From Bacteroidales bacterium (lineage in GTDB: Bacteria; Bacteroidota; Bacteroidia; Bacteroidales; UBA12077), in assembly GCA_022360575.1 (NCBI GenBank), contig JAKSCO010000254.1:1-32508 (forward strand): a stretch of DNA of 32,508 nucleotides. Direction: 5' to 3'. Of this stretch, positions 10,979 to 28,302 are shown in pieces; the stretch's first letter is position 1; each line of letters begins with the position of its first letter. The position numbers were made by a program, and so were the translations under genes. The notes under the pieces were generated by a model. The model saw nothing but the letters and a program-made list of their open reading frames with translations. It ran no database searches and was not told the DNA's origin.

Positions 10979-10980
10979 CG

Positions 10981-11054
10981 CTCCCCAACTAGGACTTGAA
11001 CCTAGGACCCCCTGATTAACAGTCAGGTGCTCTAACCAACTGAGCTATTGAGGA
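10981..11054 (-). tRNA. tRNA-Asn (anticodon GTT)
   Basis: A 74-nt cloverleaf on the minus strand. The acceptor arms TCCTCAA and TTGGGGA pair with one G-T wobble. The D stem is GCTC/GAGC. The anticodon stem CCTGA/TCAGG encloses CTGTTAA, giving anticodon GTT. The T stem CTAGG/CCTAG encloses TTCAAGT. The discriminator is G and CCA is not encoded. Confidence 0.97.
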
Positions 11055-11118: not shown

Positions 11119-11459
11119 CATCTCTTTCAAAAAAAACACTTTTTTTTAGATGCTCTTTGCTTATATCATTGACTATCTGAAATAAAAAACATAAAAAAAG
11201 ACACTAACTTTTCTTTACATAATCAGAAATTATGTCATATACCGTCTATAAAAGACATTTTTCGATAAATTATCGAAGCGTTCTAAACATAAACACTAGT
11301 CTAACTTAATAAACAAGGAATACTAAAATATTTTAATTGTGATACTATTCTCCGTTTTTTATCGTCCTGAGCATTAGTTAAAATCAGATACATAAAATCG
11401 AAAGCAAACCCATATTTATACAATTATTACTTTTCTTTTTTATTGAACTGTTTCCCTCT
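11119..11459. other. AT-rich gene-free stretch
   Basis: No gene recognised. The only structure noted is a 17-nt palindrome, TTCGATAA-A-TTATCGAA, at 11261-11277. Confidence 0.45.
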
Positions 11460-11943
11460 TATTTATTCGGAATATAAATCCCTGTTTTAAAAATATTCCA
11501 ACATTTTCGGTTTGTTTCATCTTTGCTATATTACAATTTGATTCTCGATATAAGTTATACACACTAAATACTGTTCATTTATTATCCGTTTTGCTTATTT
11601 ATAAAAGCATTTCGGTTAACTAAGCAAACAAACAGGTACCTTATCTATATTCTAGCTTAATAAACCCAAATTTTGACCTATCAAAACTATATTTTCTTCT
11701 TTTATACTAATCCATATCATTAACTTAATATTCCTGTTCTATAATTTATAGATATGATTCGGTTATTTACACAAGTGTTTCGGCAGTTAAACCAAAGTTT
11801 CCGATTCCGAACGTATATTTTTAGGTTTGGAACGTATAATTATACGTTGGTGAACCTATCCATTTCTATAATTTAATGATCTGTTTCTATAAGCAACCGA
11901 AATGGATCATTAATTAACCTAAACAGATAGGTAATTTACCTAT
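11460..11943. repeat. Degenerate tandem array, 21-bp period (array 1)
   Basis: Cutting 11587-11943 into seventeen consecutive 21-mers aligns them without gaps. By hand count, column 15 is A in 15 of 17 units and column 9 is T in 13 of 17; the two units missing A at column 15 are restored by a 1-base shift. Typical units contain TTTCGGTTA (11610, 11778) or TTTCTATAA (11863, 11884), and two neighbours end in GAACGTATA (11809, 11830). Weaker units seem to continue back to about 11460 with a small phase change. The array contains palindromes at 11831-11848 and 11927-11943. No frame is long or open, so it is not coding. Function unknown. Confidence 0.75.
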
Positions 11944-12067
11944 ATTTTAAGGATCTGGATCAATAGCATCCTAAATAACAAATCCTCCTAAATAAAGTCC
12001 AATATTCATATGCTGTTGGAAACTCATATTTTAAATACCCCCTTACGACAGAAAACACTTAAGTTTT

Positions 12068-12112
12068 AAATAGTCGAGCCTTAAAAAAGATTTTTTTAAG
12101 GCTCGACTATTT
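12068..12112. other. Long hairpin with perfect 21-bp stem
   Basis: Bases 12068-12088 and 12092-12112 are perfect reverse complements around a 3-nt centre. The core is TAGTCGAGCCTTAAAAAA. No T tract follows on either side, so it is not a standard terminator for TPR, which has its own hairpin nearby. It could be the 3' end of an untranslated RNA or a fold-back insertion. It lies about 125 bp past the end of array 1. Confidence 0.8.
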
Positions 12113-12131
12113 AACGAACGTACAGATACAA

Positions 12132-12188: not shown

Positions 12189-13166
12189 CTATAAGCATTT
12201 AACCACATGTTTCATTTGATATTCAGCAGCTTCGGCATAATCGCCTTTTTTTGCTTTAGAAAAGGCATCGCAAGCTGATGCTTTGTCTCCTTTACCGTGG
12301 AAAGCTGTTCCTAATTCGTAATATATTTTAGCATCTTTAGTAGTTCCTTTTGGTTTAAACAACTCTAATGCTTTTTTTGCTGATTTTATTCCAGCATCCC
12401 ATTTTGATTGTTTGTTATAAATAACTGCTAATTGGTAATATAAGTCAGAATTGGCTGCTTTGTACTCCATTGAAGTATTGAAATGTTTTTCGGCAACGGC
12501 ATATTTTTCGGCTTTAACGGCAACAGCACCAGCTTTTAAATAAAATCCACTAGCTATTTTTTTAGCTGTAGCTTCTGATTTTTTGTCTTTTTTAGCAACA
12601 GCAGTAGTTATAGCCATATCGACAGCAGCTTTAAAGTTAGCTTCGTCTTTTTGCTCTTTATATACTTGAGCTTTTCGCACATAAGCCATTGGGTATTTTG
12701 GATTCAGTTCGATTGATTTATCGAAAGATGCTAAAGCTTCTTCGTATTTTTTGCTTTTTAATAAGCTAACACCTTTTGCATAATACAATTTAGGAACTGT
12801 AGCTTTTGCTTTTTTCGCATTTTTAGGATCATTATAGGTTTCGGCATATTCTTTTAATTTTCCGAAAGCGGCTATCGACTCGTCGTATTTTTTTTGTTTA
12901 TAAAGGCTTATTGCATATTTATATTGCATATTGGGAATTTGCCCTGATGCTGTAACAGCATTGTCATTATCTCCATCTTCTAACTCTTCATAAATCTCGA
13001 CACACTTTTTGAATGACTCTATTGCTCCTAAGTAATCTTTTGCTTTTGATTTTTCGGCGCCTGCCTTTAATGCATCAATTGCTTCTGACTCGGTTTGAGC
13101 ATTCACCATAACTGCACAACTTAACAAAATGATTACAGTTAAACTACTCATTAATTTAAATTTCAT
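12189..13166 (-). CDS. Exported tetratricopeptide-repeat (TPR) protein
   Basis: 325 residues. The signal peptide covers about residues 1-23 (a Lys-rich start, a hydrophobic core, and cleavage after VNAQ), so it acts in the periplasm or outer envelope. The mature part is almost all TPR-like helical pairs: about 37-70 (DYLGAIESFKKC), 88-120 (KYDESIAAFGKL), 130-165 (KYEEALASFDKS with N-P-K-Y-P), 205-265 and 278-310. It is very Lys/Ala rich. TPR proteins act as scaffolds; no enzymatic motif is present and the partner is unknown. It is a single gene with its own terminator, divergent from the polyprenyl synthase. It may help envelope assembly, but this is not shown by the sequence. Confidence 0.85.
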   Translation of the reverse strand: MKFKLMSSLTVIILLSCAVMVNAQTESEAIDALKAGAEKSKAKDYLGAIESFKKCVEIYEELEDGDNDNAVTASGQIPNMQYKYAISLYKQKKYDESIAAFGKLKEYAETYNDPKNAKKAKATVPKLYYAKGVSLLKSKKYEEALASFDKSIELNPKYPMAYVRKAQVYKEQKDEANFKAAVDMAITTAVAKKDKKSEATAKKIASGFYLKAGAVAVKAEKYAVAEKHFNTSMEYKAANSDLYYQLAVIYNKQSKWDAGIKSAKKALELFKPKGTTKDAKIYYELGTAFHGKGDKASACDAFSKAKKGDYAEAAEYQMKHVVKCL

Positions 13167-14487: not shown

Positions 14488-14513
14488 TTGAAGTTAGGTA
14501 GCATCTCAGCTAC

Positions 14514-14638
14514 CTTTGTAAAATGAGTATCTATCTTTGTAAAACTTTGTCCCTACAATGTAAAATGACCTCCCCACTCTGCGAAAGTTCGTCTATCTTT
14601 GTAAAACGACCTCCCCTCTTTGTAAAAAATCCTATATA
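14514..14638. repeat. Tandem array of six 21-bp units (array 2)
   Basis: Units start at 14514, 14535, 14556, 14577, 14597 and 14618 (spacings 21, 21, 21, 20, 21). The conserved first half is CTTTGTAAAA, exact in four units. The second half is often GACCTCCCC (units at 14556 and 14597). It fills the gap between the convergent ends of the polyprenyl synthase gene and deoC, so it is not a promoter for either. Stops interrupt all frames over the array as a whole. Function unknown. Confidence 0.88.
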
Positions 14639-14644
14639 ATAAAA

Positions 14645-14674
14645 AAAGAAGCTGCCTTTTTGGACAGCCTCTTT
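14645..14674 (-). terminator. Terminator of the dtd-deoC cluster
   Basis: On the minus strand AAAGAGGCTGTCC pairs with GGCAGCTTCTTT (one bulge, one wobble) and is followed by a run of seven T. It lies 20 bp after the deoC stop. The GGCTGTCC core recurs at 25.57 kb. Confidence 0.8.
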
Positions 14675-27515: not shown

Positions 27516-27698
27516 AATATTTAGGTTCTTATATCATATTATCAACAAAGAGACAATACAATTGTGGTTAGTAGGAATCTTATTCATGGGATGAATGTAA
27601 CGAATCAGGATTTAAAAAACAAACACAATAAATAATTTCAACAGCAATGGCTTAAAATCTTATTTAAAAAGGTCTCCCTATTATTCATAATCTTTAAA
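27516..27698. other. Upstream region of the M1 peptidase gene
   Basis: 183 bp of AT-rich sequence that should hold the peptidase promoter. No clean TAnnTTTG box was found on the minus strand. A unit resembling array 3 may start at about 27657. Confidence 0.4.
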
Positions 27699-28231
27699 AT
27701 ATCATCAATGGGGTCAACACCCCCAAGCATGATATTCTGGTCTTTATTAATTGTGTCGATAATATCGGTTATTATCTCCTAAATAAATACTATATATTGT
27801 CTTACATCGAACATCCCTATTTTTATATCCATCGAGATTTAAATGACATCAATTAATATCTTTTTTTGATCGATAACCTCGAACAAAACATCAAAAACCA
27901 AGCTTTTTACATCCTTCGAGTCAAAAAGAATATCAACCTTGGAGTAATTTATCTCATTAATGACCTCTGAGACATAAACAATAGGGGAATTTTTTTTAAC
28001 CAAAAGACCCCTCCAACATAAACATCGATCTAAATTTGGTCAATCGAGATGTATTTTACCCCAAGCTTGATGTACTTTAGGTATTTTTTCTTTCAAAATT
28101 TTGATATAAATCGATGTTTTTGAGACCTTAATTGATGTTATCGTCGAGTTAATAGATGTTTTTCTGATCATCTTTGATGTAAATAATAGCATTTACGATC
28201 TCTGTAACATATTTAATAAACACCTAGACAT
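27699..28231. repeat. Degenerate tandem array, 21-bp period, with an internal orientation change (array 3)
   Basis: From 27699 to 27992, fourteen gap-free 21-mers align. By hand count T is at column 4 in 12 of 14 and C at column 5 in 11 of 14, giving starts such as ACATC or ATATC (27804, 27825, 27846, 27888, 27909, 27930). After a 44-bp double unit and 28022, the motif appears on the other strand as GATGT: 28048, 28069, then 28113, 28134, 28155, 28176 and a GATCT at 28197, again every 21 bp (28069 to 28113 is 44 bp). The second half of units often contains CTCGA or GACCTC. It lies between endonuclease gene 2 and the M1 peptidase gene. No start codon opens a credible ORF. Function unknown. Confidence 0.82.
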
Positions 28232-28270
28232 AAACAATGGGGTCGGCATCCCTAATTGTAATTAATATCA

Positions 28271-28302
28271 AAAAAAAGCGTCTAACTATCTATTAGACAC
28301 TT
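28271..28302 (-). terminator. Terminator of endonuclease I gene 2
   Basis: On the minus strand AAGTGTCTAA pairs with TTAGACGCTT (one G-T wobble) around a 7-nt loop and is followed by eight T. It lies 23 bp after the stop. Confidence 0.85.

Follow-up and report, generated by a model that had tools for sequence, protein, structure and literature searches.

A worn 21-bp tandem array and its dispersed intergenic relatives in an uncultured marine Bacteroidales

The array and its surroundings

The stretch of DNA analysed here (the "window", 32,508 nucleotides) belongs to the genome of an uncultured marine Bacteroidales. Its array A sits in ~1.1 kb of noncoding, AT-rich DNA between a tRNA-Asn gene and a TPR-protein gene (Table 1). 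Next to this array lies a decayed copy of the tail of a membrane-transporter-like gene. A fuller copy of the same gene tail (C46/C296; L009 2-784) also has an A array directly downstream, so that tail and array seem to have been co-duplicated; this suggests that the two arrays of the pair arose by local segmental duplication. Elsewhere in the window (positions 4-2045), a 246-bp tandem repeat of 8.3 copies forms part of a large gene of the secreted SprB/HYR type, which ends in a type IX secretion tail.

Table 1. Coordinates of array A, its flanking features and two further arrays in the window.
Feature	Position	Strand	Remarks
tRNA-Asn gene	10980..11054	-	flanks array A on the side opposite the TPR gene
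Decayed gene copy	11329..11601	+	3' end and downstream flank of a membrane-transporter-like gene
Array A	11587..11965	.	18 degenerate 21-bp units, consensus ~TTTTTCGGTTATTTAACCAAA; strand meaningless (noncoding, partly self-complementary)
Array A core	11734..11888	.	best match to paralogous arrays elsewhere in the genome
Register slip	11838..11840 (11839/11840)	.	1 bp, between units 12 and 13; downstream units shifted by +1
Hairpin	12066..12114	.	between TPR gene and array; 23-bp arms, T-rich centre, terminator-like
TPR-protein gene	12189..13166	-	3' end toward array A
Array B	14500..14651	.	another 21-bp family (..CTTTGTAAAACGACCTCCC..), in an opposite-strand relation to array E (L148)
Array C	27650..28290	.	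third 21-bp family; large inverted arrangement, ACATC.. in the first half and GATGT.. in the second

Array A is an authentic, although worn, 21-bp tandem repeat. At period 21 its columns have a mean entropy of 1.491 bits, whereas dinucleotide shuffles average 1.721 (z -9.8; none of 1000 shuffles as low), and among periods 15-30 the excess is confined to 21. Lag 21 is the sole strong short lag (z +8.9), with echoes at 42 and 63. The first-pass annotation had described 17 gap-free 21-mers at 11587-11943, with A in column 15 of 15 units and T in column 9 of 13. Positions and counts are exact, and a column shared by 15 of 17 units is seen in 0.1% of the shuffles, far under the 1-in-20 line that it had proposed for refutation. 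The repeat is therefore present, but its units do not follow one another without a gap: units 13-17 align best when shifted by one base, owing to a 1-bp insertion at about 11839 that divides the array into two registers. When this slip (one 22-bp step) is allowed, 18 units are found, and the conserved columns sharpen to A15 in 18/18, A19 in 17/18, T9 in 16/18 and T4 in 14/18; the fit score reaches 194, compared to 53±8 for shuffles allowed equal freedom. Mean pairwise unit identity is 0.39. In the A consensus, position 12 is the centre of a symmetric pairing of conserved columns (T5/A19, G7/C17, G8/C16, T9/A15), and covariation at this dyad is weak (z 2.4).

A protein-coding heptad repeat is rejected, each frame of the window array containing at least seven stops. 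No match for the array was returned by Rfam or by phage and plasmid searches, and a viral origin is rejected as well, the two IMG/VR matches to an 18-mer being isolated chance hits.

Family A, its unrelated neighbours and the MITE link

The array region of the window matches 49 pieces of its own genome. At least 15 contigs bear arrays of family A, with as many as 19 units, and some loci are 80-92% identical to one another. In C316, C317, C331, C358, C231, C233, C149, C286, and C195, family A matches extend to the contig end, as repeats that interrupt an assembly would. The family A sequence is absent from 58 relatives, 19 congeners among them. When nine paralogous A arrays are phased independently (123 units), the commonest columns are T9 (110), A15 (106), T4 (97), T3 (95), and T5 and A19 (94 each), and those conserved in the window array rank among them. 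The earlier view that this is not a fresh minisatellite is borne out, since the array is old and diverged, belongs to a dispersed family, and has biased columns that recur in its paralogs. Neither a constant leader, nor a constant tail, nor fixed shared ends were found in A arrays.

About ten further intergenic array families are present in the genome. Their sequences are unrelated to A and differ greatly from each other, while their unit is ~21 bp or a multiple of it; families B, C, D, I, and J are multi-locus and species-specific. A period of 20-22, 41-43 or 62-65 bp characterizes 13 of the 19 noncoding arrays in 519 kb sampled from the genome, and 8 of the 14 lying outside the window, in a survey that is not fully random: some contigs were sampled because they matched the first query, the matching stretches themselves being excluded. 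Such periods are found in 2 of 13 noncoding arrays from congeners other than G002 (~1.1 Mb). Furthermore, the mean noncoding autocorrelation, with the window excluded, displays sharp peaks at lags 21 and 42 only, which are not seen in congeners. Array K (L150 9353-9541) is composed of alternating 21-bp units, some of them near-perfect palindromes showing paired changes (CTTCCGTAT/ATACGGAAG, CTCTGTAC/GTACGGAG).

Among the 19 congeners sampled, clear arrays of a comparable kind occur in G002 only, which harbors two in 119 kb, one of them made of 12-13 clean 21-bp units (L242 4013-4285). The core of the latter, AATGA, resembles that of family D. The same locus in sister species had been proposed as the place to look for a persisting period; in G002, the nearest array-bearing congener, no array lies beside the TPR-gene ortholog, nor at the locus matching array C, and array position is thus not conserved. 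Of note, noncoding DNA makes up ~12-14% of the stretches sampled from this genome (G000) and G002, versus ~7-8% in most other congeners.

A MITE of ~162 bp is scattered in the genome together with ~76-bp deletion derivatives (copies include L151 16968-17128, L207 1209-1370, and L009 4787-4862). It has terminal repeats ATACCAAAnGAAnnTCAAnATGAG, with the terminal inverted repeat (TIR) ATACCAAAnGAAnnTCAA. Genome-wide, 76+76 near-exact TIR ends are counted, against none in 10 congeners and none for a reversed-pattern control. TIR-like ends are found at 14 array-boundary places, where 1.4 are expected, and involve families A, B, C, D, E, K, and M. No MITE end adjoins the window array, and such ends are present at only 2 of 18 A arrays, hence carriage of family A by the MITE is not established. 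Neither an intact mobile element nor a transposase could be linked to the TIRs, and the autonomous parent of the MITE was not found; between the TIRs at L155 2744-4418, a candidate autonomous element was rejected, as the enclosed ORF resembles a membrane transporter and not a transposase.

Register, folding and competing explanations

Family D (L203 858-1343, L149 5871-6185, L204, L205, L206, L207, L208, and L211) consists of 21-bp arrays that keep strict phase and are built on a conserved TCATT/AATGA core. Its units possess one conserved and one variable half, and the repeats differ between loci. Substitutions are unevenly spread over its columns (p=1e-6). Register was assessed block by block, with simulations calibrated on the MITE copies, whose indel:substitution ratio is 0.076: all four blocks are in register in 6/6 D arrays, an outcome expected for 2-6% of simulations each, whereas the window A array slips by 1 base, C by several, and B by 1-2. 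This block-register test, which array A does not pass cleanly, was substituted for a wrap-around alignment that had pointed to indel suppression in array A (1 indel vs 8 expected) and was dropped because simulation shows that it misses most indels. Homologous D arrays differ in net length by 0 in 13 pairs and by exactly 21 in 5 pairs. Tandem genes flank the D arrays, and in 7 of 8 cases the array points the same way as both of its neighbours; co-orientation of all of them is rejected, the eighth locus, L208, running opposite.

From these results on register, columns, length and orientation, family D looks constrained in its register and contacts, and A appears as an older, looser relative. Selection on columns and register is likely in family D, the only family in which the contact-like pattern is convincing. 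The "selected contacts" that the first-pass annotation read into array A are not established: changes along the unit tree are not unevenly spread over columns (p=0.14 in the window array, p=0.56 in the other A arrays), the register of A arrays drifts by 1-2 bp, and the comparison with G002 lends no support.

Arrays of A, C, and K fold well beyond shuffles (z -5.0, -4.8, -3.8, -6.5, and -3.9), and family D does not (z +0.75). The dyad column-permutation test is significant only for the window A array (p=0.02) and for F, and marginal in C_L225 and L027. A dyad hairpin as the general unit design is rejected, the symmetry being missing in most families.

Array A is best placed in a population of MITE-associated minisatellites, as an old member that is drifting; it is probably a worn copy of an intergenic 21-bp minisatellite that is dispersed, specific to this lineage, and copied to many sites. 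Arrays of A and of the other families would have been copied to many intergenic sites, at least partly with MITE-like ends or adjacent DNA, and whole 21-bp units would then be gained and lost, probably through slippage or unequal recombination, with drift afterwards. If transcribed, A and C arrays would form long imperfect hairpins, and read-through transcripts may be affected. A single unit length across unrelated sequences speaks against this explanation, as it runs counter to what free slippage predicts.

A rival explanation is a helically phased protein-binding array, in which each 21-bp unit places one site on the same face of the DNA and selection keeps the register and a few contact bases; for family A, the predicted site is the dyad TnGGT-N5-ACCnA. 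The value 21 corresponds to two B-DNA turns (2 x 10.5 bp) across unrelated families, the A columns are symmetric about position 12, and family D displays the column heterogeneity, the common register and the gene co-orientation described above. However, no motif is common to the families, and the dyad, only weakly symmetric in the window array, is missing from most of them. The register wanders in A, B and C arrays, column heterogeneity does not reach significance in A, and the G002 orthologous loci examined carry no array. Such an array is an unlikely account, and contacts lined up on one side of the DNA helix are an unproven possibility.

A structured RNA or terminator-like element, with arrays acting as long transcript hairpins at gene ends, seems a little more doubtful still. 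It is consistent with the folding of A, C, and K, and arrays B and E are each faced by the 3' ends of both gene neighbours. Yet D is unfolded, covariation at the A dyad is weak, Rfam offers no match, and some arrays are located upstream of start codons.

A CRISPR-like or TIGR-type guide array is highly improbable. In TIGR arrays, repeats of 8-12 nt are separated by 9-nt spacers (PMC12045711). The short period and the alternation of conserved and variable stretches are alike, and in family D the conserved and variable unit halves and the locus-specific repeats would suit a guide array. In contrast to TIGR systems, in which a Nop-domain Tas protein is encoded beside the array, no Nop/Tas gene accompanies the arrays here: PF01798 is absent from the genome with positive controls, a search by which a divergent Nop domain could be missed. 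Dozens of arrays are scattered, their variable parts recur between loci, and family A has no division into repeats and spacers. Finally, a chance pattern, for which the AT-rich intergenic setting could be invoked, is refuted by a column entropy that no shuffle approaches and by the paralogs in the genome.

Known intergenic repeats and the meaning of a common unit length

Minisatellites within mobile intergenic elements are already known in Bacteroidales. BrickBuilt of Porphyromonas gingivalis, the closest known system, is a 23-nt minisatellite inside a MITE, with ~19 intergenic copies and a lineage-restricted distribution (PMC4596501). Its units have conserved and variable positions, long stem-loops are predicted, and its sites coincide with assembly gaps (PMC4596501). 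A leader and a tail carry the TIR GAGACCTTTGCA / TGCAAAGGTCTC (PMC4596501). The arrays described here come from the same order and share with BrickBuilt a short, noncoding, spacer-free unit, multi-copy intergenic location, lineage specificity, conserved and variable unit halves, predicted long stem-loops, assembly-breaking sites, and MITE ends on some copies. They differ in having a 21-bp instead of a 23-nt unit and about ten unrelated families instead of one sequence family; the TIR is ATACCAAAnGAAnnTCAA and not GAGACCTTTGCA, and A arrays are devoid of the constant leader and tail.

BOX elements of Streptococcus pneumoniae are modular repeats scattered between genes, and the number of modules inside them varies (PMC3049150). 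They resemble array A in their dispersal, modularity, strong folding and limited host range, but possess fixed boxA and boxC ends, whereas no fixed ends were found for array A. Array A resembles BrickBuilt and BOX in kind while being a member of neither, as unit length and terminal repeats differ.

A tandem unit of about two helical turns is also a feature of plasmid iterons, which are near-identical ~20-22-bp units spaced about two helical turns apart at one Rep-bound replication origin. The arrays described here differ from these in their ~40% unit identity, their scattering over many places instead of a single origin, their intergenic chromosomal context, and the lack of any plasmid match.

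The dispersed arrays account for part of the fragmentation of the draft genome, and family D provides its best candidate for a register under selection, in a concrete and testable form. The sharing of a 21-bp unit by about ten unrelated families in one lineage appears to be new, no description of it having been found in the open-access literature. It suggests that some mechanism, DNA geometry or an enzyme for example, fixes the length, and not descent from a single ancestor. A lineage system, for instance a nucleoid or array-binding protein or a copying enzyme, might impose this two-helical-turn register on unrelated arrays; this proposal is a tentative one. If true, unit length rather than sequence would be the conserved trait of these intergenic arrays.
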